A stretch of DNA of 41,212 nt from Burkholderiales bacterium (GTDB lineage: Bacteria > Pseudomonadota > Gammaproteobacteria > Burkholderiales > Casimicrobiaceae), in NCBI GenBank assembly GCA_025927765.1, contig JAICKU010000028.1, forward strand, positions 1 to 41,212, written 5' to 3'. The notes beneath the pieces are model-generated. The model made no database searches, was not told where the DNA came from, and was given only the letters and a program-made list of their open reading frames with translations. Made by a program: the position numbers and the translations under genes. Below are positions 665 to 36,247 of this stretch, piece by piece (position 1 is the first letter of the stretch; every line of letters starts with the position of its first letter).

Positions 665-684
665 GTGCTTCTCCTGGCTGGGTT

Positions 685-737: not shown

Positions 738-843
738 ATCACACGCGACCCCTTGTTGGTGTGCTCCATTGCTGCCGTTCCCCTTCGATTTCCACTCGTG
801 CCCGTCGTCGTTTTCTTTCCCTTGCCTGCCCTCGGTTCCCTGA

Positions 844-2073: not shown

Positions 2074-2134
2074 GATTCCCCTGTCATGCAAAGGCGCTTC
2101 GCGCGCATGCGCGGCACGCCGGTCGTTGTTCCAT

Positions 2135-17831: not shown

Positions 17832-18206
17832 GTGCGGATCACTGGCATCATGTGTGTCATCGCGGCTGCGGGCCTGCTCTCCGCCTGCGCGCTTCGCGAC
17901 ACGCGGGACGATTACGACCGGTCGCAGGCCGCCGCGGGCCTCTGGGGCGACCGGCCCTTCGAGCTCATCGATTGGAATTTTCCCACCTCACGCAACCAGC
18001 CGCCGATCGAGGCGCCGAAGCGGATCCGGCTCGACCGCACGGCGATCGGCGTGACGTGGGCGACGCGCAATCCGCTGCCGCTCGAAGACAATCTCGCGCC
18101 GAACGGCGTGCCGCCGCCCAAGGCCGATGACGCGGGCGCGAAGGGTCCTCGTCCTGATCGCGGCGACGCTCGCGATCCCGTTCGCGAGCGCGTCGCTACA
18201 CGCTGA
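17832..18206 (+). CDS. Small predicted lipoprotein upstream of TamA
   Basis: A 124-residue protein I do not recognise. From the GTG at 17832, which has a clear GGAGG at 17823-17827, it starts with a short signal peptide and a lipobox LLSAC with the lipidated cysteine at residue 19. The middle region (DRPFELIDWNFP, then APKRIRLDRTAIGVTWATRN) looks like real protein, while the Pro/Asp/Arg-rich tail may be only loosely constrained because it overlaps the first 80 bases of tamA in another frame. It is presumably outer-membrane anchored and co-translated with tamA. An accessory role to the TAM complex is possible but is inference from position only. Confidence 0.65.
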   Translation: MRITGIMCVIAAAGLLSACALRDTRDDYDRSQAAAGLWGDRPFELIDWNFPTSRNQPPIEAPKRIRLDRTAIGVTWATRNPLPLEDNLAPNGVPPPKADDAGAKGPRPDRGDARDPVRERVATR

Positions 18207-19950
18207 GCCGCCGGCTGCGGCCGGCCGCGACGCCCCTCCACCCGATACCACCCCTGCCCCGGCGACGCACGCCGGGACGCTCGCCTATCGCGTCGAGATC
18301 GACGCGCCGAAGTCGCTGCGCGACGTGCTCGCCGCGAGCGTCGACCTCGTACGCTGGCAAAGCTACGAGGAGATGACCGAAAGCCTGTTCGACGCGCTCA
18401 TCGACAAGGCGGACGCGCAGGCCCGGGAAGCCGTCGCGACCGAAGGCTACTTCTCGCCGCGCATCGCCATCGACGTCGATCGGACGAAGACGCCGCGCGC
18501 CGTCACGCTGCACGTGACCCCGGGGCCGCAGGCGCAGGTGGCGAGGGTTCAACTCGACGTGAACGGCCCGGCGACCGGTGACCCCGAGGCCATGGCGGCG
18601 ATCGCGCGCATGAGGCGTGACTGGCCGTTGCCGCCGGGCACGCCGTTCAAGCAATCGGTGTGGATCGACGCGAAGGCGAAGGCGGTGGCGTCCATCGCGG
18701 GCAGCGCGTTCGCCGCCGCACATCTCGCGTCCTCCGAAGCGCGCGTCGATCCGCAGGCGGGGAGCGTCGATCTCGATGTCGCGATCGACAGCGGCCCGGT
18801 CTTTCACGTGGGCGACCTCGACATCCAGGGCCTGTCGCGCTACCCGGCCGACATCGTTCGTCATTACCGGGTGCAGAAGCCGGGCGACCGCTATTCGGTC
18901 GCCGAGCTCAACCAGTTCGTGCGACGGCTGAACGGCACCGGCTATTTCGCGAGCGTGCACGCCGCGATCGACACCGATCCGAACGAAGCGGCGAGCGCGC
19001 CCGTGCACGTGTCGGTGATCGAGGCGCCGCCGAAGAAGATCGAGGTGGGGCTCGGGTATTCGACCGATACCGCCTATCGCGCGAGCTTGAGCTATCGCGA
19101 CGTCGATACGTTCGGGCACGCCGTGCAGATGTCCGTCGACGCGCGCGTCGAATCGAAGCTGCAGAACCTGTCGCTGCGCTTCGTCGAGCCGCCCGCGGAA
19201 AACGGCTGGTCGCGCACGACGTTCGCGCGCGTCGAGCGCACCGACATCAGCGGGCTGACCACACGCACCGCGGCGACGGGCCTTCGCATGCGCTCGCTCG
19301 ACGAGCGCAATCAATGGCAATACGGGGCCGCGTTCTACGTCGACCGTGAAGAGCCGGCCGGGCTTCCGACCACGAACTCGCACGCGCTCTACATCGACGT
19401 CGAGCGCGCGTGGCGGCGCGTCGACGACATGGGCTCGCCGACGCAAGGCTACATCGTGCTCGCGCAGGCGGGCGTCGGCGTGCCCGGCGCATCGACGCGC
19501 GGATTCGAGCGGGTGATCGTGCGCTCGGCGTTCTGGCAACCGCTCGGTCGCTTGTGGTCGCTGACGGCACGTGCGGAGGCAGGCGCGGTCATTTCCCCCG
19601 ACCGGGCCTCGGTTCCGTCCGAATTGCTGTTCCGCACCGGGGGCGACACGACGGTGCGCGGCTACGCGTTCGAGAGCCTTGGCCTTCACGTGGGCAGCGT
19701 GGTGCTGCCCGTCCGCTATTACACGGTCGCGAGCATCGAGGCCACGCGCTGGATCAACGACACGATCGGCATCGCGACGTTCGTCGACGCCGGCAACGCG
19801 TTCGACCAGGTGTCCGATTTCACGCTCGCGATGGGCTACGGCATCGGCGCGCGCGTGCGCACGCCGATCGGCCCGTTTCGCCTCGACCTCGCGTACGGGC
19901 AGCAATCGCATCAGGTGCGATTGCACTTTTCCGTCGGGCTGACGTTCTGA
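18127..19950 (+). CDS. tamA: Outer-membrane translocation and assembly protein TamA (BamA/Omp85 family)
   Basis: TamA is an Omp85-family barrel that with TamB forms an inner-to-outer membrane complex needed for some outer-membrane proteins and lipid transport. The 607-residue protein has a signal peptide (RRVLVLIAATLAIPFASASLHA), N-terminal POTRA repeats through about residue 300 (for example FHVGDLDIQGLSRYP and GDRYSVAELNQFVRRLNGTG), then a beta-barrel. The barrel contains the diagnostic LLFRTGGDTTVRGYAFESLG, which holds the Omp85 loop-6 (V)RGY/F motif, and ends with RLHFSVGLTF, an outer-membrane C-terminal signature. The start ATG lies inside the upstream lipoprotein gene. Five bases separate its stop from the tamB start. 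Confidence 0.93.
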   Translation: MTRARRVLVLIAATLAIPFASASLHAEPPAAAGRDAPPPDTTPAPATHAGTLAYRVEIDAPKSLRDVLAASVDLVRWQSYEEMTESLFDALIDKADAQAREAVATEGYFSPRIAIDVDRTKTPRAVTLHVTPGPQAQVARVQLDVNGPATGDPEAMAAIARMRRDWPLPPGTPFKQSVWIDAKAKAVASIAGSAFAAAHLASSEARVDPQAGSVDLDVAIDSGPVFHVGDLDIQGLSRYPADIVRHYRVQKPGDRYSVAELNQFVRRLNGTGYFASVHAAIDTDPNEAASAPVHVSVIEAPPKKIEVGLGYSTDTAYRASLSYRDVDTFGHAVQMSVDARVESKLQNLSLRFVEPPAENGWSRTTFARVERTDISGLTTRTAATGLRMRSLDERNQWQYGAAFYVDREEPAGLPTTNSHALYIDVERAWRRVDDMGSPTQGYIVLAQAGVGVPGASTRGFERVIVRSAFWQPLGRLWSLTARAEAGAVISPDRASVPSELLFRTGGDTTVRGYAFESLGLHVGSVVLPVRYYTVASIEATRWINDTIGIATFVDAGNAFDQVSDFTLAMGYGIGARVRTPIGPFRLDLAYGQQSHQVRLHFSVGLTF

Positions 19951-19955
19951 GCCTG

Positions 19956-22900
19956 ATGCAGCAGGCATCGCCCGCACTCCCCTCCAGGCACCGCGGCTGG
20001 AAGATCGCGCTCGCGGTCATCGCGATCGTCGTCGTCGCGATCGCCGGCCTGATCGCGTTCGCGCTGTCCGATCGCGGACTGTCGTACATCGCATCGCGCG
20101 TCGAGAGCCACTCGGGCGGGCGCATCAGCGTCGAGCAGCCGAGCGGATCGCTCGCCGGGACGATGCGCTTCGGCCGCATCACGTGGCGCGGCGAAGACGT
20201 GACGCTCGTCGCCGACGACGTCGTCGTCGACTGGAAGCCCGGTGCGCTGCTCGGCCGGCATTTGCTGATTCGCGGCCTCGGCGCCCGCAAGGTCGCCCTC
20301 GCGATCAAGCCGTCGTCGAACGGCGCTGCGACCTCGCCACCCACGAATCTGCAATTGCCGCTCGACGTCGACATCGATCGCCTCGCGATCGGTGAACTCG
20401 ACTGGCAGGCGGGTCCGCGCTCGGGAAGCATCTCGGGCCTCGAGCTCGGCTACTCCGGCAACCGCAACGAACATCGCATTCGCGACCTGACGCTCGTGTC
20501 CGACTACGGTCGCCTCACGGGCAACGTGACCGTCGGTGCGAAGTCGCCGCTCGACGTGCATGGCAAGATCACGCTCGACGGCGCGGGGACGATCGAAGGT
20601 GCGCACGCGGACATCACGCTCACGGGTCCGCTCGCCATCCTCGACGTCGGCGCGAGCGGTGCGTGGCGCGACGTTTCTCTCGCGCTCCTCGCGACGGCGA
20701 CACCGTTCGCGAACACGCCCTTCAGCGCGGCGACGGCAGACCTGACCGGCCTCGATGCGAAGGCGTTCGACGCCTCGCTGCCGTCGACCCGCGCGAACGT
20801 GCATCTCGCATTCGCGCCGCAAGGCGGTGGCATCGCGGGAACGTTCGAAGCGGTGAACGATGCGGCGGGACCGATCGACACCGAGCGCGTGCCGTTCTCG
20901 CGCATCGCGGCGAAATTCGCCCTCGACATGCCGGTGCTCGACCTTTCCGACATGGTGGCGACCGTCGCCGACGGCGGCGAAGCGCGCGGCAAGGGCCAGG
21001 TCACGCTGTCGGGCGCATCGCGCGGCGTGCGTGTCGACGTCGACGTGGCGCGACTCGATCTCGCGCGACTCGACACCAAGCTCGTACAGACGAGTCTGGC
21101 CGGGAAGATACGCGCCGATGCGAACGGCGAGCGGCAGACGATCGAAGGCGACGTGCGCGAGCGCGACATGGCGCTCGCGTTCAACGCCGTCGTCGATGCT
21201 GAACGCGTCGATGTGCGCGAGTTCCGCGCGAGCAAGGCCGGCGGCTCGCTCGCAGGCTCCGCAACGCTTGCGCGCAACGACGCGAACGACTTCACGTTGA
21301 AGGCGCGCGCCGCGAACCTCGATCCGTCGCGCTTCGCCGCCCTGCCTGCCGCATCGCTCGACGCCACCGTCGACGCGAAGGGCGCACTGCATCCGGCGTT
21401 GCGCGTCACCGCCGGCGTCGCCGTCGCGCCGTCGAGCCGGGTCCAGGGCGTCGCGGTGTCCGGCAACGTGCAGGGCACGTTCACGCGCGAAAGCGCAGCC
21501 AACGTCGCGCTCGATGTGTACGCGGGTACTGCGCACGTGAAGGCCAACGGTGACGCAGGAAGCGCCGGCGACCGGCTCGCGATCGACATCGTTGCGCCGC
21601 AGCTCGCGGATCTCGCGCCGTTGTTGCCCGCATCGCTGCCGCAACCGCTCACGGGTTCGCTCGCCGCGACCGGGCACCTTGCGCTCGGCGCGAACACGGT
21701 CGGCGGCGACGTGTCGTGGCACGCACGCACGCTGCAGGCAGGCGATTACCACGTTGCCACGCTCGATGGCGAAGCGTCGATCGCACCCGCGCAGTCGACG
21801 CGCGCAACGCTCGATTCTCGGGCGCTGACGCTGCACATTGCCGCGACGAACGTGCTCGCCGGCACGCGCACCGCCGATGCGCTGGAGGCGACCGCGAACG
21901 GCACGCTCGCACGCCACCACCTGACGCTCGGCGCCCGCGCGCAGGGACAGGACGTGTCGCTCGCGCTCGACGGCACGCTGCGCAACGCCGACACGCCGGC
22001 GCGCGCCGAATGGAACGCGACGCTGCTGTCGCTCGACAATCGCGGCAGCGTGCCGCTTCGGCTCGTCGACCGCGCACAACTGACGCTGCGCGCGGGTTTC
22101 GCACGCCTGGCGGACGCGCGGTTCGATGTGGCCGACGGTCGAGTGAACGTCGCCGAACTCGCGTGGAACGAAGGCCGGATCACGACGAAGGGCTCGTTCA
22201 CCGAGATCCCGCTGACGAGTGCGGCACGGCTGTCCGGTCACGCGCTGCCCCTCGACTCGACGCTCGTGCTCGGCGGGCAATGGTCGATCGCCGCTTCACC
22301 CCAACTCAACGGAACGTTCTCGGTCACGCGCGAGCGCGGCGATCTCTTCGCCGAGATTCCCGGCGCGGACGCGACGACGCGGCAGGCCGCCGGCATCACC
22401 ACGTTCGCGCTCACGGGGACGGTGCGAAACGACACGGTCGACGCGCAACTGTCGTTCGTGTCGGCGCGCGCGGGTACCGTGAAAGGCAACGCGACGATCG
22501 GCGCGGTCGCGGGCGCTTCGGCGGGCGTGATCGATCCGCGCGCGCCGCTGCGCCTCGCCGTGCAGGGCGACCTGCCGTCGCTCGCTGTGTTCCAGCCGCT
22601 CTTCGGCACGACGCTCGCCGTCGACGGACGGGCAAGCCTCGACGTTGCCGCGAGCGGGACCGTGGGCGCGCCGCTGTGGACCGGGGCGCTCGAAGCCCGC
22701 GCACTGCGCGTGAGCGCGCCACAGTACGGCGTGCAGATGACCGACGGCGTGCTGCGCGCGCACCTCGCGCGAAACGGCATCGCGCTCGACACGTTCCATT
22801 TCGCCGGCGGCGACGGAACGCTCGACGCGAGCGGACTGATTGCGCTGCCCGGTGCGAAGGCTGCCACGACGCGCATCACGTGGAAGGCCGACCGTTTCCG

Positions 22901-23831
22901 CGTCGCGAACCGGCCCGACCTGCGCTTCGTGGTCGACGGCGGCGGCGCGATCGCGCTCGAGCAGGAGCACCTCGCGCTCACCGGCAGCCTGACCGTCGTC
23001 GAAGGCCACGTCGAATACGAATCGCAGCCGACCGGCCGGCTCGCGTCGGACATCGTGATCGAAGGCGCGCCGCGCAAGGTGTCGACGACGACGAATGCAC
23101 GCGCACCGCTCGCGCTCGACATCACCGTCGATCTCGGCAATCACCTCACGTTCACCGGCGAGGGCCTCGACGCCCGGCTCGCCGGCCGTCTGCACATCAC
23201 GACGAACGAGAACGGCCGCGTGCAGGCGAACGGCACGATCCGGACGGTGAACGGCACCTATTACGCATTCGGCCAGAAGCTCACGATCGACCGCGGCCGC
23301 GTGATCTTCGACGGGCCGATCGGCAATCCGGCGCTCGACGTCGTGGCGCTGCGCAAGAACCTGCCGGTGGAAGCAGGCGTCGAGATCTCGGGCACGGTGA
23401 AAGTGCCGCAGGTGCGCGTCACGTCGAATCCGCCGGTGCCGGAGAACGAAGCGCTCGCGTGGCTCGTGACGGGCCAGGGACTGAACAGCGGCGGCCGCAT
23501 CGATTACGGTGCGCTGTCCGCCGCGTCGGCCGCGCTCCTCGGCCGCAACGGCAAGCCGTTCACCGCGGAACTCGCGCAGCGGATCGGCCTCGACGAGATC
23601 TCGCTGCAACAGAGCGCAACCGCAGCGTCGGGAACGCAGAGCACCGTCAACCAGGTGCTCGTCCTCGGCAAGCGCATCAGCGACCGGCTGTCGCTCGGCT
23701 ACGAGCAGGGGCTGTCGCTCGCGAGTTCAGCGGTGCGGCTCGAGTACGCGCTCACGCGGCAGATCACGATCCGGGTGGAAGCGGGGACGACGAGCGGGGT
23801 GTCGATCGTGTATCGGCGGAGTTTCCGTTGA
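19956..23831 (+). CDS. tamB: Translocation and assembly protein TamB
   Basis: TamB is a large inner-membrane-anchored protein with a long beta-taco groove across the periplasm and a conserved C-terminal domain that contacts TamA. The 1291-residue protein has one N-terminal membrane segment (about residues 16-35, ALAVIAIVVVAIAGLIAFAL) and then AsmA-like repeats. It ends in the DUF490/TamB domain, seen from VEGHVEYESQPTGRLASDIV through NGTYYAFGQKLTIDRGRVIF and NPALDVVALRKNLPVEAGV. The terminal segment contains LAWLVTGQGL, ISDRLSLGYEQGL and IVYRRSFR. I chose the ATG at 19956, directly after the tamA stop. Its last 68 bases are also covered by the convergent YdcF-like gene. Confidence 0.95.
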   Translation: MQQASPALPSRHRGWKIALAVIAIVVVAIAGLIAFALSDRGLSYIASRVESHSGGRISVEQPSGSLAGTMRFGRITWRGEDVTLVADDVVVDWKPGALLGRHLLIRGLGARKVALAIKPSSNGAATSPPTNLQLPLDVDIDRLAIGELDWQAGPRSGSISGLELGYSGNRNEHRIRDLTLVSDYGRLTGNVTVGAKSPLDVHGKITLDGAGTIEGAHADITLTGPLAILDVGASGAWRDVSLALLATATPFANTPFSAATADLTGLDAKAFDASLPSTRANVHLAFAPQGGGIAGTFEAVNDAAGPIDTERVPFSRIAAKFALDMPVLDLSDMVATVADGGEARGKGQVTLSGASRGVRVDVDVARLDLARLDTKLVQTSLAGKIRADANGERQTIEGDVRERDMALAFNAVVDAERVDVREFRASKAGGSLAGSATLARNDANDFTLKARAANLDPSRFAALPAASLDATVDAKGALHPALRVTAGVAVAPSSRVQGVAVSGNVQGTFTRESAANVALDVYAGTAHVKANGDAGSAGDRLAIDIVAPQLADLAPLLPASLPQPLTGSLAATGHLALGANTVGGDVSWHARTLQAGDYHVATLDGEASIAPAQSTRATLDSRALTLHIAATNVLAGTRTADALEATANGTLARHHLTLGARAQGQDVSLALDGTLRNADTPARAEWNATLLSLDNRGSVPLRLVDRAQLTLRAGFARLADARFDVADGRVNVAELAWNEGRITTKGSFTEIPLTSAARLSGHALPLDSTLVLGGQWSIAASPQLNGTFSVTRERGDLFAEIPGADATTRQAAGITTFALTGTVRNDTVDAQLSFVSARAGTVKGNATIGAVAGASAGVIDPRAPLRLAVQGDLPSLAVFQPLFGTTLAVDGRASLDVAASGTVGAPLWTGALEARALRVSAPQYGVQMTDGVLRAHLARNGIALDTFHFAGGDGTLDASGLIALPGAKAATTRITWKADRFRVANRPDLRFVVDGGGAIALEQEHLALTGSLTVVEGHVEYESQPTGRLASDIVIEGAPRKVSTTTNARAPLALDITVDLGNHLTFTGEGLDARLAGRLHITTNENGRVQANGTIRTVNGTYYAFGQKLTIDRGRVIFDGPIGNPALDVVALRKNLPVEAGVEISGTVKVPQVRVTSNPPVPENEALAWLVTGQGLNSGGRIDYGALSAASAALLGRNGKPFTAELAQRIGLDEISLQQSATAASGTQSTVNQVLVLGKRISDRLSLGYEQGLSLASSAVRLEYALTRQITIRVEAGTTSGVSIVYRRSFR

Positions 23832-24576
23832 GCGCTTGCGTGACGTCGAAGAGCGCATTGCCGAGCAACTCGTAGCACGCGTAGTAGCTCATCACGAGCC
23901 CCTGCACGCCGGGCACGAAGTCGCCGAACGCGCGCGGCACCGCCGGCGGAATGCGAATCGGGGCAGCGACGACGGCGATACCGGCCGCCTCGAATTCCTT
24001 GCGGGAGCGCGGGAAGTCGAAGCTGTGACCGACCAGGATCACGTGCGAGATGCCGCTCTCGTGCAGCATCGCTGCCGAATCGACCGCGTTTTCGTGCGTG
24101 TTGTGCGAGCGAGCCTCGATCCACCGCACGGGCAGGCCGAACTCGTGCACGAGGACATTACGCATGAGCACCGCCTCCGCTGGCGCACCGCGGACGGCGC
24201 CGCCCGAAACGAGGATCGGCAGATGCGTTTGCCGGGCGAGGCGTGCGCCGTAACGCACGCGCTCGAGCGTGATCGCGTTGACGGTCGCGCCGCCATACTC
24301 CGGTGCATAGGTCCGCGTGCCGCCGCCGAGAATGACGATCGCCTGCGCCTGCCCCGCGCTGGCAACATCGAACGGCGGGGTACGATCGAGCAGCCGGATC
24401 AGGAACGCGCCGACCGCAGGCGTGGCGAGCAGCCACAGCGCGAGCACGCCGACGAGCGCGATGCGCCGGCCGGCGCGCGGCCGTCGGCCCGCCACGGCAA
24501 GGCCCGCGAGCGCGACGAGCAGCGGCGCGACCGGTGGCAGCGCGAGCAGCTTGACTGCATACTTCAGCCAGAACAA
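23764..24576 (-). CDS. YdcF/SanA-like (DUF218) membrane protein
   Basis: A 270-residue DUF218 protein; the family's biochemical role is still poorly defined (envelope-related and SAM-binding functions have been suggested). It has one or two N-terminal membrane segments (residues about 10-30 and 38-58). The family core begins AQAIVILGGGTRTYAPEYGG and continues with LPILVSGGAV, RSHNTHENAVDSA and HVILVGHSFDFPRS. The only usable start in frame is a TTG at 24574-24576, without a clear ribosome site, so the N-terminus is uncertain. The last about 20 residues (after LFDVTQALNG) look unconstrained and lie over the end of tamB on the opposite strand. Confidence 0.85.
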   Translation of the reverse strand: MFWLKYAVKLLALPPVAPLLVALAGLAVAGRRPRAGRRIALVGVLALWLLATPAVGAFLIRLLDRTPPFDVASAGQAQAIVILGGGTRTYAPEYGGATVNAITLERVRYGARLARQTHLPILVSGGAVRGAPAEAVLMRNVLVHEFGLPVRWIEARSHNTHENAVDSAAMLHESGISHVILVGHSFDFPRSRKEFEAAGIAVVAAPIRIPPAVPRAFGDFVPGVQGLVMSYYACYELLGNALFDVTQALNGNSADTRSTPRSSSPLPPGS

Positions 24577-24761: not shown

Positions 24762-25568
24762 ATGGCCATTCCTCCTGAATCCCCGTCGCCGGCGGACGCT
24801 TCGCCGTCCCCGAAGTCGAGCGGTCGTCGCCGGCTGTTGCAGGGCGGCTTGGCGGCCGCACCGGTCCTGATGACCGTCGCGAGCCGGCCGGTGTTCGGCC
24901 AGGTGTGCGAATCGGCGTCGGCAGCCACGTCGGTGCCTTCGAGCGGCGCGCGTGCGCAGATTACGTGCAGCGGCCTCACGCCCGATCAGTGGCAGGCCAT
25001 CCCCGACCAATGGCCGTCGCCTTACATCGCCGTCGCCGCGTCGTCGATCGGGACGGGCAGCACGAGTATGGGTACCACGTCCACGAGCGGTACCGGCACG
25101 ACCACCACGAGCGGCACGGGCACCACATCGACCGGCGGCTCGCTGCTAAGCCAGTACTCGACGCGTATCGGCGGGCAAAGCACCACGCTCGGCACGGCCG
25201 TCACGCCCGCGCCTGCCCCCGATCTTTATGGCGGCACGTCACTCGATCAGGCCAGTGCGCTGTCGTCCGGAAACGGCGCCACGCTCTATCACTGCGCCAC
25301 CACGGGCCTCGGCGGCCGGGTGTTCGGAAGCCGCACGATGATGAACGTCATCGGCATGACCGGGAGCGGCGGCAACCTCGACGCCCTTGGCCGGTACATC
25401 GTCGCCGCACTGCTCAACGCGCGCACCGGGCGCACGCCCGTACTCGACGAAGGCGGCGTGCGCAACATGTGGAACGACCTCGTGCATCGCGGCTACTTCG
25501 AGCCCACCGCGGGCGTACGCTGGGGCGCGCCGCAGATCGTCGCCTACCTCAAGACGACGATGGGTTAG
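24762..25568 (+). CDS. Tat-like exported Ser/Thr/Gly-rich protein, putative HPr-rel-A partner
   Basis: A 268-residue protein. A Pro/Ser-rich head (residues 1-20) is followed by a twin-arginine-like signal at about 22-47: RRRLLQGG, then a hydrophobic stretch, ending RPVFGQ before C49. C69-S-G-L-T-P-D-Q-W then begins a segment with DQWPSPY. Residues about 97-127 are almost only Ser, Thr and Gly with a roughly 8-residue repeat (SGTGTTTT, SGTGTTST). The C-terminal domain has YIVAALLNARTGRTPVL, NMWNDLVHRGYFEP and QIVAYLKTTMG. From memory, similar proteins with a C-x-x-R-TPGYWK motif and this C-terminus occur beside HPr-rel-A genes in Betaproteobacteria; here the TPGYWK motif looks degenerate. Function is unknown. 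I infer it is a substrate of the downstream kinase and transferase. The ATG at 24762 has no obvious ribosome site. Confidence 0.75.
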   Translation: MAIPPESPSPADASPSPKSSGRRRLLQGGLAAAPVLMTVASRPVFGQVCESASAATSVPSSGARAQITCSGLTPDQWQAIPDQWPSPYIAVAASSIGTGSTSMGTTSTSGTGTTTTSGTGTTSTGGSLLSQYSTRIGGQSTTLGTAVTPAPAPDLYGGTSLDQASALSSGNGATLYHCATTGLGGRVFGSRTMMNVIGMTGSGGNLDALGRYIVAALLNARTGRTPVLDEGGVRNMWNDLVHRGYFEPTAGVRWGAPQIVAYLKTTMG

Positions 25569-25587
25569 CCGCGCCTGCGGCACGGGT

Positions 25588-25884
25588 GTGGACGGGAATT
25601 CGCGCTGGTGCAGCGCGGCGCGCGACGTGCTCGGCATGCGCGTCCTCGACGACGAACTCGTCATCTATAATGAAACGACGGGCAGCACGCATCACCTGAG
25701 CGTGCTCGGAAGCGTCGTCATGCAAGCACTCGTTCGGTACCCCGACGGCATCGCGTTTCACGATCTGGTCCGCGCCATCTCCGACGACGAAGGTGCGCTC
25801 GTCGACGACGAACTCGAGGGTGCAGTCGCGCGGGCCCTCGACGGTCTCGCGGCACTGGGGCTCGCCGTGGCCATCGATCGTTGA
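25588..25884 (+). CDS. HPr-rel-A system PqqD-family peptide chaperone
   Basis: A 98-residue protein of the PqqD fold, the small winged-helix domain that binds precursor peptides and hands them to modifying enzymes. The sequence RVLDDELVIYNETTGSTHHL followed by SVLGSVVMQALVRYPDG has the PqqD/RRE pattern: a strand, a short turn, a second strand (TGSTHHLS), then helices. Its position directly before an HprK-related kinase points to the HPr-rel-A subgroup. Start is the GTG at 25588, 19 bases after the stop of the exported-protein gene. The stop overlaps the kinase start as TTGA. No leader-peptide binding partner has been shown; the upstream exported protein is the obvious candidate. Confidence 0.85.
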   Translation: MDGNSRWCSAARDVLGMRVLDDELVIYNETTGSTHHLSVLGSVVMQALVRYPDGIAFHDLVRAISDDEGALVDDELEGAVARALDGLAALGLAVAIDR

Positions 25885-26792
25885 TCGTCGCCGATCTTTC
25901 GCCGTCCGAACTGCGGCACCGGTTGCGCCATGAGGGCCTGAGGCTTTGCCTCGGTCCAGTTGCGGCCGAGATCCGCTCGCCGTTCCCGGTCGTCGAAGCC
26001 GGGATCGCCCTGCACTACGCGCGGCATCGCATCGTCGCGGACGACGCGTTCGCCGACTTCCATGTGTCGGTCGAGCCGCCATTCGGCATCCGGCGCTACG
26101 TCGGGCCACAGGCGTTGTTCAGGTTCGACGGCAGCACGACCTTCCATCCGCTCCCTGCCGCGCAGGCGTTCCCGCTCCTCGAATGGGGGCTGAACTGGTG
26201 CGTATCGGCGCAGTGCGATCACTTCCTGGTGCTGCACGCGGCGGTGCTCGAGCGCGCGGGACAGGCGTTGCTGCTGCCTGCGCCGCCGGGCTCCGGCAAG
26301 AGCACGCTTTGCGCCGCACTCGTCGCGCGCGGCTGGCGCCTGTTGTCCGACGAGCTCGCGATCCTCGACCTCGACGCGCCGCGCGTGCATCCGATGCCGC
26401 GGCCGATCAGCCTCAAGAACGCCTCGATCGACGTCATCCGCACGTTCTGGCCCAACGCGGCGATCGGCGCCCTCGTGCCCGAAACGCTCAAGGGCACCGT
26501 TGCGCACGTGCGACCTCCTGCGGAAAGCGTCGCGCGCGCAGGCGACGCGGCGAGCGTGTGTTTCGTCGTGCTGCCCGAGTTCGTGCACGGCGCGTCGACG
26601 GCCATGCAGCCGGTCGGTCGCGGCGAGGCCTTCATGCGTCTCGTCGACAGCAGCTTCAATTACGCGGTGCACGGCCGCGCGGGCTTCGATGCGCTCGGCG
26701 CACTCGTCGCCCACGCTCGGTGCCGCACCTTCCGCTACGGCGGTGCGCTCGACGAAGCGACCCGGGCGTTCGACGCACTCGCAACGTCGTGA
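25881..26792 (+). CDS. HprK-related kinase A
   Basis: A 303-residue protein related to the kinase domain of HPr serine kinase/phosphorylase. The P-loop is LLPAPPGSGKSTLCAAL with the lysine at K140, followed by the acidic RLLSDELAILDL motif, matching the HprK Walker A and catalytic acidic region. A distinct N-terminal domain of about 115 residues (for example SPFPVVEAGIALHYA and FHVSVEPP) is typical of the HPr-rel-A type and differs from HprK. No HPr gene is visible in the window, so it probably phosphorylates another target, plausibly serines or threonines of the exported partner. Start is a TTG overlapping the chaperone stop; the stop overlaps the next gene's GTG. Confidence 0.9.
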   Translation: MIVADLSPSELRHRLRHEGLRLCLGPVAAEIRSPFPVVEAGIALHYARHRIVADDAFADFHVSVEPPFGIRRYVGPQALFRFDGSTTFHPLPAAQAFPLLEWGLNWCVSAQCDHFLVLHAAVLERAGQALLLPAPPGSGKSTLCAALVARGWRLLSDELAILDLDAPRVHPMPRPISLKNASIDVIRTFWPNAAIGALVPETLKGTVAHVRPPAESVARAGDAASVCFVVLPEFVHGASTAMQPVGRGEAFMRLVDSSFNYAVHGRAGFDALGALVAHARCRTFRYGGALDEATRAFDALATS

Positions 26793-27862
26793 ACGCCCAC
26801 GCAGCGCGCACTCGCCTGCTCGTCGCGGCGCTCGCCGGCGAGCCGTACGTGCGCGACGATCGCGGCTACGAGCTCCTCGTGCGGAGCGCGCGCGAAGCCG
26901 ATCTGCTCGGCCGGCTCGCCTGGCGCTATGCCAGCACCGGACGAATCGACGAAGTGCCGGACGCGGCACGCGCGCATCTCGTCGGCGCGACGAACCGCGG
27001 CCGAGCGCAGCATGCCGCGGTCCGCCGGGAAACGCAGGCGATCGCCGACGCGTTGCGTAGCGTGCACACGCCCGTCGTGCTGCTGAAGGGCGCGGCCTAC
27101 CTTCTCGCGGGATTGCCCCCGGCGCATGGCCGCCTGTTCTCGGACATCGACATCCTCGTCGCGAAGGAACGCCTCGGCGACGTCGAGGCCGCGCTGATGC
27201 TCGCGGGATTCGCCACGACGCACCTGCATCCGTACGACCAGCGCTATTACCGGCGCTGGATGCACGAGCTGCCGCCGATGCTGCACCTGAAGCGCCAGAC
27301 GCTGCTCGACGTGCATCACACGATCGTTCCGGAAACGTCGGGCGTCGCGCTCGACGCGCGCGAGCTCTTCCGCGCCGCCGTGCCGATCGCGGGCACACCG
27401 TTCCTCGTGCTCTCGCCGCTCGACATGGTGCTGCACAGCGCGACCCACCTGATGCACAACGAGGAGTTCGGCCACGGGCTGCGCGACCTCGTGGACGTCG
27501 ACGCGCTGCTGCGCCATTTCGGCGCCGATCCCAGGTTCTGGCCGCGGCTCGCGGCGCGCGCGGGCGACCTCGATCTCGGCCGGCCGCTCTATTACGCGCT
27601 TCGCACCGCATCGCGCGTGCTCGGCACACCGGTACCCGAAGAAACGCAAAGGGCGATCGGCCGCTACGCGCCGCCGCTGCCAGTGCGCGCGCTGATGGAT
27701 CGCGTGCTCGAGCGCGCGCTCGCGCCTGCATCCGCGTCCGCCGCCACGCGCTGGGCGCGCCGCGCGCTCTACCTGCGGGGTCATTGGCTCAAGATGCCGG
27801 TACCGCTTCTCGCCTGGCACCTGGCGTTCAAGGCATTGCGCCGCGACGTCGAGCCCGCGTAG
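26789..27862 (+). CDS. Nucleotidyltransferase family protein (PF14907-like)
   Basis: A 357-residue protein of the nucleotidyltransferase family that often accompanies polysaccharide loci and some peptide-tailoring clusters. The core VVLLKGAAYLLAGLPPAHGR leads into FSDIDILV, with the metal-binding D119-x-D121 pair, then VHHTIVPE and FLVLSPLDMVLHSATHLMHN (the last with family-typical histidines). The start is a GTG overlapping the kinase stop (GTGA). Related enzymes modify phosphorylated lasso peptides, so here it may act after the kinase on the same substrate; the donor and product are unknown. It is the last gene of the unit and faces the serine protease gene, 35 bases away. Confidence 0.85.
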   Translation: MNAHAARTRLLVAALAGEPYVRDDRGYELLVRSAREADLLGRLAWRYASTGRIDEVPDAARAHLVGATNRGRAQHAAVRRETQAIADALRSVHTPVVLLKGAAYLLAGLPPAHGRLFSDIDILVAKERLGDVEAALMLAGFATTHLHPYDQRYYRRWMHELPPMLHLKRQTLLDVHHTIVPETSGVALDARELFRAAVPIAGTPFLVLSPLDMVLHSATHLMHNEEFGHGLRDLVDVDALLRHFGADPRFWPRLAARAGDLDLGRPLYYALRTASRVLGTPVPEETQRAIGRYAPPLPVRALMDRVLERALAPASASAATRWARRALYLRGHWLKMPVPLLAWHLAFKALRRDVEPA

Positions 27863-27897: not shown

Positions 27898-28704
27898 TCA
27901 GGGCGGTTTCGGCGCTGCGCCGGCCGCCGATTGCAGCAGCGCGCGCAGATGGTTCGCCGGCACGGCGTACGTGATGCCGCTCGGGTCGGTCAGCGCGCTT
28001 TCCTTCGTGCGCTTGACGAACACCATGTTGACGATGCCGATCACTTCGCCCGTGGCCGGGTCATAGACCGGGCTGCCGCTGTTGCCCGGATACGCGGTGG
28101 CGTCGAGCTGGAACACGGCGAACGATCCGCTCGACAGCCGATGGACGACCGCCGGGTCGAGCTGCGCCGCGTTCCCCTGCGGAATCGCGATCGGCGTGAC
28201 CGCCGACACCATGCCGCGATGCGTGACCGGAAACGGGCCGAGCACCGCGCCGATCGGAAAGCCGGTGATCAGCACGTCCTGCCCTTCGCGCACGCTCGCC
28301 GAATCGCGCAGCGCGAGCGGCGGCAATGCGTCGCCGGTGAGCTTGAGGAGCGCCAGGTCGGAGCCGGGATCGAACGCGGCGCGCCGCACTTCGCGCACCG
28401 TGACGCGATCGGGCGTCGCGCCCGGCGTCATGATCGCGAGCACCTCCTGATGCGCGAGGTCCACGCCCCCGGGCAGCACGTGCGCATTGGTGACGATCGT
28501 CGTGCCGTCGCCGACCGCGAAGCCGGTGCCGCGAAACGCGAATGGTGGCGAGCGCGTGCGCTCGAACGTGCCCACCGCGACGACGGAGCGCTTGACGCTC
28601 GCGATCGTATCGATGCGATCGGCGGCGGCGAGCGGCGGCGCGATCGCCAGCGCTGCTGCGGCGAGCACGAAAGCGTGAAGCAGGCGCCTTCGGTGGCGAT
28701 GCAT
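27898..28704 (-). CDS. Exported trypsin-like serine protease (no PDZ domain)
   Basis: A 268-residue protein with an N-terminal signal peptide (RRRLLHAFVLAAAALAIAPP, cleavage near AAA-D29) and a chymotrypsin-fold protease domain. The triad is visible as H75 (TNAHVL), D116 (SDLALLKL) and S209 (GNSGSPVYD). It is DegP-like in fold but too short for a PDZ domain, so it is not a full DegP/DegQ. It is the last gene of the leftward extracellular polymer transcript, 25 bases after the lytic transglycosylase. A role in periplasmic quality control or processing of secreted proteins is an inference. Confidence 0.9.
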   Translation of the reverse strand: MHRHRRRLLHAFVLAAAALAIAPPLAAADRIDTIASVKRSVVAVGTFERTRSPPFAFRGTGFAVGDGTTIVTNAHVLPGGVDLAHQEVLAIMTPGATPDRVTVREVRRAAFDPGSDLALLKLTGDALPPLALRDSASVREGQDVLITGFPIGAVLGPFPVTHRGMVSAVTPIAIPQGNAAQLDPAVVHRLSSGSFAVFQLDATAYPGNSGSPVYDPATGEVIGIVNMVFVKRTKESALTDPSGITYAVPANHLRALLQSAAGAAPKPP

Positions 28705-28729: not shown

Positions 28730-29692
28730 TCAGTGCGCGTCGCCGTGCGCGGCGATGACCGACGGCGCGACGAGATCGGGGTCGAACGGATGATGCGGGC
28801 TGCGAAAGAGCCGCATCACGCGCCGGACGTAATCCTGCGTTTCGGGATACGGCGGTACACCCTTGTAGCGATCGACCGCGCGCTCGCCGGCGTTGTAGGC
28901 CGCCGCGGCCAGCGCGACTTCGCCGCGGTAATACGCGAGCAGCCAGCGCAGGTACGAAAGCCCGCCGCGCACGTTCTCCTTCACGTCGTAGCGGTTCTTC
29001 ACGTTGAACCGCGCCGCCGTCTCGGGGATGAGTTGCATCAGCCCGCGCGCATCCTTGACCGAGCGCGCGAGCGCGTTGAAGTTGGACTCGACCGCGACGA
29101 CGGCGAGCGCGAGCTTCGGATCGATGCCGAAGCGCGGCGCGATGCTCGTCACGAGGTCGGCGATCTTGCGCTTGTCGGGCGCCAGGTTGGCGAAGGGGTC
29201 GGGCGCGTCGTCGGCGTCGGCGATCGCCCATTCGGGCGCGCGCGCGGGCGGCGCAGGCGGGCGCATGCAGTCGGGCAGCACGCCGTGTACGCCGCCGAGG
29301 CGATCGAGCGTGAGCTTCGCGTAATGGTGACCGCTCCTGGCCGCGACATCGAACAGCGCGGACGCGGTGCCGTCGTCGTGAACGACGCCGCGGCCGTTCG
29401 CGTACATCCAGCCCAGTTGAAACGCCGCCTCGGCGCTGCCGGCCATCGCGGCGTCGCAATAGATCGCCGCGGCGATCTTCTCGTCCTTCGGCACGCCTTC
29501 GCCGTGCTCGTAGGCGAGTGCGCGCGCGAGTTTGTCGGCGGTCGACGGCACCGCGGCGACGTCGTGCGACGGGTCCGCTGCCGCGGCGTCGCCCGACGCG
29601 AGCGCGAGTGCGAGGCCCGCGCTCACGAACGTGCCCACCCACGCGGCGCCTGCGATGCGACCCGCCGGGGAGTCAGATCGCACTCGCGGCAC
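28730..29692 (-). CDS. Lytic transglycosylase with Sel1-like repeats
   Basis: A 320-residue protein with an N-terminal signal or anchor segment ([20 protein letters not shown]). Sel1/TPR-like repeats follow over about residues 50-125 ([40 protein letters not shown]). The C-terminal half is a soluble lytic transglycosylase (SLT) domain with the catalytic glutamate at E202 ([12 protein letters not shown]), [13 protein letters not shown] and [15 protein letters not shown]. It cleaves the glycan strands of peptidoglycan. The GTG start lies within the end of the epimerase gene (20-base overlap). In polymer loci such enzymes are thought to open the wall for envelope-spanning machinery. Confidence 0.92.
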
Positions 29693-30773
29693 CCGCTTGC
29701 TGAACGTCGTTCATTCGCGAAAGATGCGCCTCGTACCAGGGGAGCGCGTCGGCGAGCCCGCGCGCGACGTCCCATTGCGGCCGGTAGCCGAGCAGCCGCG
29801 CCGCCTTGCCGATGTCCGCCTGCGAATGACGCACGTCGCCCGCGCGGAAGTCGTCGTGCACGGCGGGCGCGATCACGAGTCCCGGGTGCCGGTCGGTGAT
29901 CAGAGCGCGCAGGTGCCGCTGAAGTTCATTGAGCGACAGGCGACCGCCGACGGCCACGTTGTAGACCTGGCCACAGGCGTTGGCATCGGCGACGGTGGCG
30001 GCGAGCAGATTGGCCTGCACCACGTTGCGGATGTAGCAGAAGTCGCGCGTCGTCTCGCCGTCGCCGTGGATCACGACCACGCGCCCGTCGAGCATCGACG
30101 CGACGAAGCGCGGAATGACGGCCGCGTACGCGCCGTGCGGATCCTGGCGCGGGCCGAACACGTTGAAATAGCGAAGCCCGATCGCCTCGAGGCCGTAGCA
30201 GCGCGCGAATGCGTTCGCGTAGAGCTCGTTCGCGTACTTCGTCACCGCGTAGGGCGACAGCGGCGCGCCGACGACGTCCTCGACCTTCGGCAGCGCCGGA
30301 TGGTCGCCGTACGCGGAGCTCGACGCCGCATACACGAAGCGCGACACGCGCGCGTCGCGCGCGGCGACGAGCATGTTGAGAAAACCGGTGTCGTTCGTCG
30401 CATGCGTGCGCAGCGGATCCTCGATCGAACGCGGCACCGATCCGAGCGCCGCCTCGTGCAGCACGATGTCGACACCCGCGCACGCACGCCGGCAGCTGTC
30501 GAGGTCGACGATGTCCGCTTCGAGGAACGTGTGACGCCGCCACGCGGTGGCGCCCACCTCGTTGCGGATCTCGTCGAGATTGCGGCGAAAGCCGGTCGCG
30601 AAGTTGTCAAAGCTCACCACGCTCTGGCCGAGCGACAGCAGTTCGGCCACGAGATGCGAGCCGATGAAACCCGCACTGCCGGTGACGAGCCAGCGGCGCG
30701 GATGCGCGCGCAACGAAGCGCGGGCGCGCGACAGCGCGTCCGCGCCGCTTTCGACGGCGGTCAGAGCCGCCAC
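29673..30773 (-). CDS. UDP-N-acetylglucosamine(uronate) 4-epimerase, TviC/WbpP type
   Basis: A short-chain dehydrogenase-type epimerase of about 366 residues. It has the NAD loop G32-x-x-G35-x-x-G38 in [15 protein letters not shown], the catalytic SSS and YxxxK residues ([19 protein letters not shown] and [11 protein letters not shown]), and the strongly conserved [16 protein letters not shown] and [20 protein letters not shown] segments. These match TviC of the Vi antigen and WbpP rather than GalE. With the upstream dehydrogenase it would give UDP-N-acetylgalactosaminuronic acid. The GTG start at 30773 overlaps the dehydrogenase stop by 13 bases; the first about 25 residues are weakly conserved, so the true start could be slightly downstream. 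Confidence 0.9.
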
Positions 30774-32050
30774 ACCGAGAAGCCGCGGTCGCGCAGTGCC
30801 TGCGCGTCCGACTGGCACTTGACGTCGACGAACAGCCCCGACGGCTCGAGCTTCGCAGCGAAGTCGTCGACCGGCCGCGACGTGAGGCCGGTGTGCGCGA
30901 CCGCCAGCACGACGGCGTGGGCGCGCGGCAACTTTTCCCACGCCGACAGCGTCACGCCGTACTCGTGCACCGCCTCGTCCGCATTCGCCACCGGATCGTG
31001 TACGTGCACGTCGGCGCCGTACGACTGCAGTTCGTGGATCACGTCGATCACGCGCGAATTGCGAAGGTCGGGGCAGTTCTCCTTGAACGTGAGGCCGAGC
31101 ACGTTGATCTTCGCGCCCTTGACCGGAAAGCCGGACTGGATCATCTGCTTCACCGTCTGCTCGGCGACGTACTTGCCCATGCCGTCGTTGATGCGGCGCC
31201 CGGCGAGGATCACCTGCGGGTGGTAGCCGAGCTTGTCCGCCTTGTGCGTGAGGTAGTACGGGTCGACGCCGATGCAATGGCCGCCGACGAGCCCGGGGCG
31301 AAACGGCAGGAAATTCCATTTCGTCCCCGCCGCCGTCAGCACGTCGTTCGTGTCGATGCCGATCTTGTGGAAGATCAGCGCGAGCTCGTTCATGAGCGCG
31401 ATGTTGAGATCGCGCTGCGTGTTCTCGATCACCTTCGCCGCCTCGGCCACCTTGATCGACGACGCGCGATGCACGCCGGCGGCGACCACGCTGCCGTAGA
31501 TTGCCGCCACCTGCTCGAGCGTCTGCGGCGTGTCGCCCGACACGACCTTGGTGATCTTCGTGAGCGTGTGCTCGCGATCGCCGGGATTGATGCGCTCCGG
31601 CGAATAGCCGACGAAGAAATCGCGCTGCCACTTCATGCCCGAGTGGCGCTCGATCACCGGCACGCAGATCTCCTCCGTCGCGCCCGGGTACACCGTCGAT
31701 TCGAACACGACGATCGCGCCCCGCTTCAGGTTGCGGCCCACCGATTCGCTCGCGCCGAGCAGCGGTCCGAAATCGGGCTGGTGCGCGTCGTCGATGGGCG
31801 TCGGTACGGCGACGACGATGAAGTCGGCGCGGCGCAGCGCTGCCGGGTCGGAGGTGACCTCGAGATGCTCCGCCGCGGCGAGATCGTCGCGGCTCACTTC
31901 GCCCGTCGGGTCGAAGCCGCTGCGATACGCGTCGATCTTCGCCGCCGACAGGTCGAAGCCGATCGTGCGGTACTGCTTGCCGAAGGCGACGGCGAGCGGC
32001 AGGCCAACGTAGCCCAACCCGACCACCGCGATGATGTTTGCGTTCGTCAT
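30761..32050 (-). CDS. tviB: UDP-N-acetylglucosamine 6-dehydrogenase, TviB/WbpO type
   Basis: A 429-residue NAD-dependent nucleotide sugar dehydrogenase that oxidises C6 of UDP-GlcNAc (or UDP-GalNAc) to the uronate. The Rossmann loop is [17 protein letters not shown] (G11-x-G13-x-x-G16), the central domain contains [12 protein letters not shown], and the catalytic cysteine is C259 in [18 protein letters not shown]. Many stretches, such as [20 protein letters not shown] and PLIDxx-like nucleotide-binding residues near the C-terminus, fit the TviB/WbpO subgroup rather than UDP-glucose dehydrogenase. Start is ATG at 32048-32050, 45 bases after prsT. It pairs functionally with the downstream epimerase. 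Confidence 0.9.
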
Positions 32051-32095: not shown

Positions 32096-34879
32096 CTACA
32101 GCGCCGACATGGCCTTCTCGGCCTCGGCGCGGATCTTCGGTGCCTTCTCCGCCTTGGTGAGCGGCGTAAGCGCGTCGCGCGCGGCGGTCTTGTCGCCCGC
32201 GGCCGCAAGGGCCTGCCCGAGATGCAACTGGTACTCGAGCTGCCCCGGCGCCATCGCCGTCGCCATACGCAGCACCTGCACGCCGCGCTTTGCATTGCCG
32301 TTGCTCGTGTACGCGTACCCGAGCGTGTCGAGCACGCCCGGATTGAACGGCGCGAGCCGATGCGCCTGCTCGGCGTAGCCGAGGCCCTTGGGATCCTTCT
32401 TCTGCGTGAGCATCCAGCCCATGTTGTTCAGCGCGAGCACGTTGTCGGGGTCGATCTTCAGCACGCGCTCGTACGCGGGGATCGCGCTGTCGAGGTCGCC
32501 CTTCGCGAGGCTGCGCTCGGCGAGCAGCGTCGGCAGCGTCGCGTCGGTCGGATGCTGCTCGATGAAGCGCGTTGCCATCGCCTTGGCGTCCGCTCCCTTG
32601 CCCGCCGCCTCGAGCAGCGTGTAGTACCGCGCAGCGATCTGCGGCGTCGGCGTGCGCGAGAACGCTTCACGATAGCCGTTCGCGGCATCCTGCCACTTCT
32701 GCTGCACGGCGTAGATCTCGCCTTCGAGCGCAAAGCCGATCGCCTGCTTCGGCTCATCCTTCTGCAGCTTGCGCGCGTCCGCCAGCGCGGCGTCGGGACG
32801 GCCCCACGCGATATAGGTCTTCGCGAGCAGGCCCCAGGCCTGTGCAAGGTCGGGCTTCAGCGCCAGCGCCTTGCGCTCACTATCGACGGCGGATGCGAAT
32901 TCCTTGTTCGCGGCCTGCGTTTCCGCGAGCTGCAGCAGCGGCAGCGGATTGTGCGGCTGCAGCTGCGACAGGCGCTTGAACGTGCCGATCGCCTGGTTGT
33001 AGTCGCCGCTCAGCGCCTGGGTCGCCCCGGCGAGTGCCAGCAGCTGCGGACTGTCGGGGATTGCCGCGGTCGCGGCCTGCGCAGCGGAGACCGCGCTCTT
33101 CGCGTCGTGTCGACGCAGGTCGAACTCGATGCGGGCGACGCGCGCGCGGAGCGACGTCGGCTGATTGGCGACGGCGCGGTCGAGCGCACCCCTGACCTCG
33201 TCCTGCGATGCGCCGCTGACGGCCAGCACTTGCGCGTACGCGAGCAGCAGCTGCTCGCTGTTCGGGAACGTCTTCAGCAGGCGCTCGTAGCGCTCGCGCG
33301 CCGCCTGCGGGCGTCCTTCGCGCACGTCGAGGATGCCGAGGTTGTAGGCCGCGCCGAAGAAATCGGGCTGGACCTCGAGCGCCTTCTCGAAATTCGCGCG
33401 CGCGTCCTTCATGTCGCCCTTCGCGAGCGAGACGACGCCGCGCAGATCCCAGGGTAGCCCGCTCTTCGGCTGCTTCTTCTCGATGGTGGCGACCGCAGCG
33501 AGCGCCTTGTCGTAGTGACGCTGGCGCATTTCCGCGAAGAACAGCGCGAGATCGGCCTGGGAGCTCGACGCGTCGCTCGCGGCCAGCTTCTCGAGATCGT
33601 CGACGGCACGCTCGGTTTCGCCGCCGGCGTACCGCACTTCGGCGAGCCGAACCTGGCTTGCCATGTTGTTCTTGTCGACGCTGTTCGCGCGCTCGTACGC
33701 GCGCTCCGCCTGAGCCGCATCGCCGGATGCGAGATACGCTTCGCCCGCCGTTCGCAGCAACAGCGGATTGTCGGGCGCCGCGCGCAGCGCGGGCCCGAGC
33801 GTCTCGAGCGCCTGCGGTCCGCGCCCGGTGCGCAGGTACACGACCGCGAGCGCGCGGCGTGCACCGACATTCGCCGGCGTGCGCGTGACGACCTTGCGCA
33901 GCGCCTCTTCGGCGGTCGCGTACGCGCCGAGCTGATAGTCGACGAGGCCGGACAGATACAGCGTGGCGATGTCGTCGGGCCGCGCGGCGAGCACGCGCTG
34001 CAGCGCATCGCGCGCCTGCGCGTAATTACCTTGCGCGAACGAGACCAGCGCCTCACCGTAGATGGTGCGCAGCTCCTGCGGCTGGCTCTCCTTCATCTTC
34101 GCGAGCTGCGCCTTGCCCGTGGCGACGTCGCCCGACGTGACGGCAATCGCGAGCCGCATGTAGCGCAACGCGATCGATTCGGGATGCGCTTCGATCCCCT
34201 GGTCGAGCGCCTTGATCGCCGCGTCGCGCTTGCCTTCGCCCGAATCGAGCTGCGCGAGCATCAGGAGCGCATCCGCATTCTTCGCGTCCTTGGCCAGCAC
34301 TTTCTGGATCGCCGCGTGCGCGGCTGCGGAGTCGCCGTGCTGCGCGGCGATTTGCGCGAGGATCAGCGTCGCGCGAACGTTGTCGGGATCGTCGGCGAGC
34401 GCGACATCGGCCAGCCGCTTGGCCCGGTCCGCGTTGCCCTGCGCGAGCGCCGCGATCGCAACCCACGCGTCGAGGTCGGCGCGCGCGGCGCCGGTGGCGA
34501 GCTTCTGGTTGCCAAGCTCGCTCTCGACCTTCGCGAACTGCCCCTGCGACGCGAGCGCGCGCGCGAGGAGCGGCATCGTCCGGTCCGCGGGGGCGTTCAG
34601 TGCGATCGCCTTGCGCACTTCGGCTTCGGCCCCGGCGGCGTCGCCCGTCGCGAGCAGCGACTGCGCGAGCACGAGACGCGCGTCGGCGCTGTCCGGATCC
34701 TTCTGCAGCGCGTTCTTCGCCTCGATCACCGCCGCCTTGTAGTCGTTCTTCGCTGCGTACGCCTGCGCCGACTCGACGTACGCGGCAGCGTCGTGCCGGC
34801 CGCATGCGGTGAGCGCGAGCGCGGCGGCGAGCGCAACGCACGCGACACGCAAGCGGTACGGATGGTGGGTGTTGTTCAT
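32096..34879 (-). CDS. prsT: PEP-CTERM system TPR-repeat lipoprotein PrsT
   Basis: A 927-residue lipoprotein made almost entirely of tetratricopeptide repeats. The signal peptide ends at the lipobox ALTAC with lipidated C26. The TPR units recur about every 34 residues (for example [60 protein letters not shown]). Length and repeat content fit PrsT, a marker of exosortase A/PEP-CTERM polymer loci, where it is thought to act as a scaffold in polymer or protein export. The ATG at 34877-34879 has GGAG upstream and follows prsR by 19 bases. Its exact partners are unknown. Confidence 0.93.
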
Positions 34880-34898
34880 GTCGACTCCGTGGCTCCGG

Positions 34899-36247
<1,349 letters not shown>

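Follow-up and report, generated by a model that had tools for sequence, protein, structure and literature searches.

The window analysed here is a stretch of 41,212 nucleotides from a Burkholderiales bacterium (assembly GCA_025927765.1, contig JAICKU010000028.1), in which four consecutive forward-strand open reading frames (ORFs), A to D, form a compact cassette with gaps of 19, -4 and -4 bases, just as the original prediction had described. The cassette encodes an exported protein followed by a peptide chaperone, a kinase and a nucleotidyltransferase, and its features are the following:

24762..25568, + strand: A, ATG start, 268 amino acids; Ser/Thr/Gly-rich exported protein, proposed precursor and substrate, with homologues at the kinase locus
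24762..24902, + strand: proposed leader of A (residues 1-47), with an n-region, an RRRLLQ motif and a hydrophobic core up to ASRPVFGQ; similar to signals of the twin-arginine translocation (Tat) pathway
24906..24932, + strand: mature start of A and candidate acceptor region; C49, S53 and S57 show at least 90% conservation within the window's class
25588..25884, + strand: B, GTG start; PqqD-family peptide chaperone, or RiPP recognition element (RRE), TIGR04353
25881..26792, + strand: C, TTG start; HprK-related kinase A, TIGR04352, with H119, P-loop K140 and D157
26789..27862, + strand: D, GTG start; nucleotidyltransferase NTP_transf_5, PF14907, with K100-G101, D119xD121 and D174

The N-terminal twin-arginine (RR) signal sequence of A reads GRRRLLQGGLAAAPVLMTVASRPVFG, and an alternative, longer frame is possible from a TTG at 24702. 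C scores 367 bits against TIGR04352 (cut-off 200), D reaches 178 bits against PF14907 (cut-off 31.2), and B, for which a Pfam scan matched no model, obtains 35.0 bits against TIGR04353, just meeting the curated cut-off of 35. By curated score, B and C are therefore members of the HPr-rel-A system (TIGR04352/TIGR04353), B right at the limit. The family descriptions of this system name no substrate, and we propose A as the partner missing from them. The active sites of C and D appear intact by alignment: His119, Lys140 and Asp157 of C fall in invariant columns of a 35-row alignment (numbered 115, 136 and 153 there, since the row begins at residue 5), and the D residues listed above are invariant among 168 rows, five loci having been entered twice. 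Compared with the sequences of the PDB, C gave a best E of 0.22, with HprK entries at 0.4. No NCBIfam or Pfam model matched A at E<=1, and the protein ends in YLKTTMG, without a PEP-CTERM tail; Pfam likewise matched none of its homologues at loci L059, L118 and L144. A lone weak NCBIfam match that would make the L118 homologue XdhC-related (17 bits vs a cut-off of 350) was discarded, as were the matches of A to PDB sequences, which were antibodies at chance level (best E 0.22).

The conservation of A beside the kinase was followed in two surveys. The TIGR04352 cut-off is exceeded in 61 of 398 genomes sampled from the phylum and in 50 of 300 sampled from the order, and the first survey comprised 96 loci: the window, the 49 other order-sample loci, and 46 of the 55 remaining loci of the phylum sample (the kinase genomes left out are G022, G030, G097, G141, G149, G153, G165, G173 and G189). 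Iterated profiles seeded with the window proteins matched C at all 96 loci, D at 90, B at 84 and A at 77, with the four together at 65. A lies upstream of C on the same strand at 70 of its 77 loci, downstream on the same strand at 6 and on the opposite strand at 1. Upon a looser scan, 12 of the 19 profile-negative loci also show an ORF with an RR pair and a hydrophobic core just upstream, which brings the A-like proteins to 89 of the 96 loci. The second survey reused these profiles on the best-scoring 80 of at least 192 confirmed relatives among named genomes, mostly, according to their titles, environmental beta- and gammaproteobacteria. Among these best 80, A was matched at 79, D at 79, B at 77 and all four at 75, and the A profile matched 82 of 12,012 ORFs. 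Five of the 80 overlap with the first survey; at the 75 loci new to the analysis, A was found in 74, and its sole miss is L190, where 349 bases lie upstream of the kinase frame. Because A recurs in this way at B-C-D loci outside the profile building, its arrangement with B, C and D exceeds chance. The original prediction, under which A would be modified in the cytoplasm while folded and then exported by Tat, is supported in part: the kind of survey it named as a possible refutation speaks for it, A being a co-conserved partner with a common RR leader.

The association was also examined genome by genome across the 300 order genomes, where the best first-look candidates were scored to a fixed depth per genome (7 for the kinase, 3 for the histidine kinase PrsK considered below, 10 for the A profile and 25 for the leader model), absence being meant at that depth. 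A profile from alignment A2, whose 46 rows were hand-chosen from 67 candidates and belong mostly to the window's class, gave matches at E<=0.001 in 45 genomes, of which 43 are among the 50 kinase-positive and 2 among the 250 kinase-negative ones. In the two kinase-negative genomes (G490 and G562), the match covers a mature-domain stretch only, within ORFs of 1046 and 1301 amino acids, and in G452, one of the 43 kinase-positive genomes, it likewise lies only within a large ORF away from the locus. A leader model of 39 residues (A3), built from 76 of 150 leaders, covering other A classes too and with some rows from genomes later searched, matched 42 genomes at E<=1e-5, every one of them kinase-positive. 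The best kinase-negative genome scored 4.3e-5, and the model fades into generic signals, since 85 genomes match at E<=0.01.

For the anatomy of A, 150 of 169 sequences were kept after redundancy was removed at 70% identity. Their selection demanded an R[RK] pair, which only 2 of 159 profile hits lacked, both at contig ends, and RRx[FLIMV] is present in 146 of the 150. The commonest leader residues are S-R-R-R-L-L-K-x-G, with Ser in 39 and Lys in 58 of the 150 proteins. Tat signals combine an S/T-R-R-x-F-L-K-type motif with a hydrophobic core. A has both an RR motif and such a core, as the sequence of a Tat substrate should; TatC is encoded in the window's genome, and A is probably exported via Tat, judging from its sequence. 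In the window's class (46 rows), every row has R22 and R23, and conservation is at least 90% at S41, C49, S53, S57, P74, W84 and N219. Across the 150 proteins, with the cleavage site placed by a crude rule, the share of Ser plus Thr is 26.6% in the first 15 mature residues and 17.4% beyond them. In a sample of 1500 pairs with a shuffled control, A proteins whose kinases are 35-40% identical (309 pairs) share 34% of the leader block (17% when shuffled) and 11% of the mature part (8% when shuffled), and those whose kinases are 55-95% identical (79 pairs) share 52% and 37%, respectively. Three loci carry two copies of A each: L157 (3028-5542), L198 (2531-4040) and L206 (5667-7104). Between the two copies, leader-block identity is 85%, 59% and 56%, respectively, and falls to 48%, 35% and 34% over the mature part. 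In these alignments, the common part of A is the RR leader plus a Ser/Cys-rich mature start, and the remainder diverges nearly to chance at distant loci. Such a combination of an RRE, a kinase, a transferase, a conserved leader, a variable body and duplicated precursors is the pattern of leader-guided peptide modification.

The genes downstream of the cassette in the window connect it to the XrtA/PEP-CTERM exopolysaccharide system:

27898..28704, - strand: trypsin-like protease; cluster present in 22 of the 96 loci, including the window
28730..29692, - strand: Sel1/SLT lytic transglycosylase-like protein; cluster in 11 of the 96 loci, including the window
29673..32050, - strand: UDP-sugar C4-epimerase-like and nucleotide-sugar dehydrogenase genes (context)
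32096..34930, - strand: PrsT, XrtA/PEP-CTERM system TPR protein, TIGR02917 at 720 bits; cluster in 19 of the 96 loci, including the window
34899..36230, - strand: PrsR, PEP-CTERM-box response regulator, TIGR02915 at 714 bits
36248..38350, - strand: PrsK, XrtA/PEP-CTERM histidine kinase, TIGR02916 at 778 bits

PrsT, PrsR and PrsK lie 4-10 kb from the cassette, and XrtA is encoded on a different contig of the same genome. Among the recurrent neighbour clusters of the surveyed loci, of which 20 representatives were annotated out of 50 clusters, PrsR, PrsT, the XrtA amidotransferase and XrtA glycosyltransferases were identified by their representatives. PrsK (TIGR02916) is above cut-off in 75 of the 300 order genomes: 47 of the 50 kinase-positive (all except G402, G497 and G517) and 28 of the 250 kinase-negative ones (Fisher p ~2e-31, uncorrected for relatedness). 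The association is not only one of neighbourhood, since in G489, G102 and G617 the PrsK and kinase loci are at least about 0.37 Mb apart. The kinase therefore tracks the XrtA/PEP-CTERM system (PMC1569441), both by nearby genes in the window and by co-occurrence across genomes; A, which matches no PEP-CTERM model, has an N-terminal RR signal instead. The original prediction, right about the parts of the cassette, had overlooked this link and also the second small cassette of the same genome described below.

The likeness to the PqqD/HprK/nucleotidyltransferase tailoring of lasso peptides, on which the original prediction was built, holds family by family for each gene, and a system published in 2026 comes closer still. 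The paeninodin and pseudomycoidin clusters of Bacillota share an HprK-like kinase and a nucleotidyltransferase with the cassette; PadeK phosphorylates the precursor on its C-terminal Ser, an acceptor that is not general in A, and PsmN, the nucleotidyltransferase homologue of pseudomycoidin, is required for the hexoses on the phosphoserine (PMC9266682). The linear polyphosphorylated peptides (LPP), known from the lpp cluster of Paenibacillus alginolyticus, are made without a macrolactam cyclase: LppK phosphorylates core residue 3, and a signal-peptidase-like enzyme cuts the leader (PMC13381572). These loci combine a discrete RRE, an HprK-like kinase and an NTP-transferase, as the cassette does; their precursors have a conserved N-terminus and a variable C-terminus, as A does; and they are situated within polysaccharide clusters, a setting that resembles the XrtA/PEP-CTERM neighbourhood. 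A Ser close to the beginning of the LPP core is phosphorylated, and the Ser/Cys-rich mature start of A is the candidate acceptor region here. The differences are also clear. LPP are restricted to Bacillota according to their authors, whereas the cassette is found in Pseudomonadota and has an RR, Tat-like leader. LPP precursors measure 35-200 residues and come with their own type I signal peptidase (SpI) and an MsbA-like transporter (PMC13381572), whereas A spans 105-269 residues from the RR to its end in 149 of 150 proteins. The 20 annotated neighbour representatives include no SpI, and one ABC-transporter cluster occurs in 13 loci. By its profile matches, the cassette is thus a member of HPr-rel-A through B and C, LPP-like in pattern, yet without the LPP leader motif. 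The main text of the LPP paper (PMC13381572) contains none of the terms Proteobacteria, Pseudomonadota, Gram-negative or HPr-rel. A literature search that covered few papers of subscription journals found neither HPr-rel-A nor the accessions or model names of TIGR04352 and TIGR04353, nor exosortase together with PqqD, nor a Tat signal peptide together with RiPP and leader peptide, and the passages searched in the RRE-Finder paper (PMC7470986) and in a 2025 RRE paper (PMC12710340) mention neither HPr nor a kinase. Twin-arginine and PqqD do appear together in PMC8724576, PMC11763638 and PMC12676729, whose titles point to other subjects.

Taking these observations together, we favour, as rather more probable than its competitors combined, the reading that the four genes form an operon for protein modification, which acts on A and is linked to the XrtA/PEP-CTERM exopolysaccharide system. 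By analogy with the peptide systems, B would bind the RR leader of A, and C would then phosphorylate a Ser (or Thr), with the conserved Ser/Cys-rich region right after the signal as the likeliest place. D would cap this phosphate with a nucleotidyl or sugar group, after which A would be exported, probably by Tat, and a signal peptidase would remove the leader. The end product would be a phosphorylated or phosphoglycosylated A in the exopolysaccharide matrix. The genes, their conserved association, the constant leader before a variable body and the tie to the polysaccharide system are observed, and from them we infer the chemical steps, the modification site and the use of Tat; A is probably phosphorylated and further decorated in the cell before export, much as a peptide natural product would be, here on a whole secreted protein.

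Several points weigh against this reading. The capping by D is its weakest step, because deletion of the NTP-transferase gave no detectable change in the LPP system (PMC13381572). The LPP leader motif [Y/W]xxP occurs in just 3 of 150 A leaders, that of the window having neither Tyr nor Trp, and the score of B only equals the TIGR04353 cut-off. An RR pair with a hydrophobic core is insufficient as proof of Tat use, and the similarity among leaders may be partly generic to such signals. No acceptor Ser column is common to all A classes, only two Arg being at least 90% conserved across the 76 leader rows. The conserved C-terminus expected by the original prediction did not hold up as a general feature, since several class-specific types exist: under loose patterns, 42 of the 150 A end in C[WYF]xSF, 47 in YLxxT[MFW] and 61 in neither, and the second type often has Asn in place of Thr within the window's class (YLxxNW). 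These counts go against the first idea about the acceptor, a C-terminal hydroxyl as in paeninodin, which was rejected as a general rule. An A-like ORF was not found at 7 of the 96 loci of the first survey (L107, where a candidate was discarded as spurious, L123, L124, L134, L140, L149 and L153). Finally, 28 genomes have PrsK yet lack the cassette, and the polysaccharide system therefore does not need it.

The leader model, at 3.5e-4, also uncovered a second set in the window's own genome (L002, G000:C82:49259-52501), with genes at 3-713 (-), 667-984 (+), 1028-1204 (+) and 1282-2151 (+). Here a PqqD protein (PF05402, 63.5 bits), an HprK-like kinase (57 bits to TIGR04352) and a nucleotidyltransferase on the opposite strand (PF14907, 85 bits) are arranged around an RR peptide of ~55 residues with the tail KPDKPQKPHDKGDD. 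A near copy of this peptide is found on contig C99 (leader model 1.2e-4), reading PRREFAKKAVYVAPAILTLAVAPAYAKSGSEK before a Pro/Asp/His tail; it forms the last ~56 residues of the ORF at 211-726 (-) of L268, near the contig end, with RREFAKKAVYVAPAILTLAVAPAYAKSGS followed by the Pro/Asp/His-rich tail, and is perhaps a second substrate in trans. The L002 kinase is rare: across 200 order genomes it had only weak further matches, located at TIGR04352 loci.

Among 20 low-scoring HprK loci hand-picked from a longer list, a D homologue is present in 9 of the 11 loci L279-L289 and in L294. L288 clearly has a PqqD-like part within its kinase frame (PF05402, 28.8 bits, cut-off 23.4), and other loci show a weak one. 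By eye, after a regular-expression search, a small ORF with an RR or KR leader lies near the kinase in 10 of those 11 loci (all but L282), some on the opposite strand or ~1 kb off, and L290-L298 showed no convincing one. A post hoc and noisy filter for small RR peptides gave 23 hits in 120 kb (21 loci) vs 52 in 675 kb of HPr-rel-A outer flank, that is, 1.15 vs 0.46 per 6 kb, and the leader profile at E<=0.01 picked out only L002 (7e-6) and one L286 ORF (0.006) among the low-scoring loci. Since the filter is noisy, this group is kept only as a lead. We entertain, tentatively and with somewhat less than even confidence, that PqqD, HprK-like kinase and NTP_transf_5 constitute a widespread cytoplasmic machine of Pseudomonadota, in which the Tat signal would double as a RiPP leader and RR-leader proteins and peptides would be phosphorylated and capped before export. 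This machine would span HPr-rel-A, acting on whole proteins and tied to the XrtA exopolysaccharide system, the L002 mini-cassette with a second such peptide in trans, and the HprK-like kinases found next to RR peptides of 60-95 residues; some of these kinases have a PqqD-like part. If so, it would supply the biofilm matrix with phosphate or sugar-phosphate units bound to protein, which perhaps serve as attachment points for polysaccharide.

The best-surviving alternative, which we nevertheless regard as unlikely, is that B, C and D modify some other substrate, such as a sugar-phosphate, a polysaccharide primer or PEP-CTERM proteins, with A merely an exported partner working at the same place. 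The strong link of the kinase to the polysaccharide system suits it, and the role of A as substrate is a deduction. However, B belongs to a peptide-binding family, distant A proteins share their leader rather than their mature part, the A profile reaches just 2 of 250 kinase-negative genomes, there as a domain in large ORFs, and the second PqqD/kinase/nucleotidyltransferase locus surrounds a short RR peptide. It is less probable still that phosphorylation of the leader times export as a quality-control tag and that mature A leaves unmodified. Ser41, which lies in the signal region, shows at least 90% conservation within the window's class, and RREs bind leaders in known systems (PMC13381572), but a group-adding D would presumably be wasted on a discarded leader, and the Ser/Thr enrichment is located past the signal. 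Least credible, despite the identity of the three tailoring families, is a strict lasso-peptide or LPP cluster releasing a small peptide from A or an unseen small ORF as an ordinary RiPP precursor, given the 268 residues of A, the rarity of [Y/W]xxP in its leaders, the absence of a lasso cyclase among the 25 window ORFs scanned, as the original prediction had stated, and a genome-wide best of 209 bits, on another contig, for the lasso cyclase model NF033535 (cut-off 525), while an Asn-synthase neighbour at L123 (one representative) is the XrtA amidotransferase (825 bits to TIGR03108, cut-off 816.9, against 253 for the lasso cyclase model).

The four-gene unit occurs in many environmental Pseudomonadota and, in the window, stands beside an exopolysaccharide (slime) locus. 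If the modification of A is correct, it would tell what a kinase/chaperone pair acts on, by which leader rule and in what biological setting, where the databases consulted name the pair without any of these. RRE-guided phosphorylation would then act on whole exported proteins as well as on small peptides. It would also join the question of HPr-rel-A function with that of what decorates the matrix of the XrtA system. Records of Massilia, Duganella, Methylomonas, Nitrosomonas and Sulfuricella carry the locus in the second survey, and the proposal is therefore testable.

Some minor observations accompany these loci. Peptides of ~60-150 residues with RR or KR leaders are found near HprK-like kinases at L285:2014-2224, L289:2090-2279, L286:201-1007, L288, L283, L287 and L279; six of them gave no match in an NCBIfam scan. 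Upstream of the cassette, the window holds a cell-division/murein cluster and TamA-like (18127-19950) and TamB-like (19410-23831) genes, both on the + strand, and an ElyC-like gene (23764-24576, -) lies between this pair and the cassette, all three scoring under the curated cut-offs. A prmC-like methyltransferase gene adjoins the cassette at L059, L067, L069-L074, L077 and L079-L081, mostly together with release-factor, hemA-like and glutaredoxin genes. Very large ORFs of 1046-2888 amino acids at G472:C22, G490:C33, G562:C43 and G452:C65 contain the mature domain known from the window's class of A, matching there without the RR leader.

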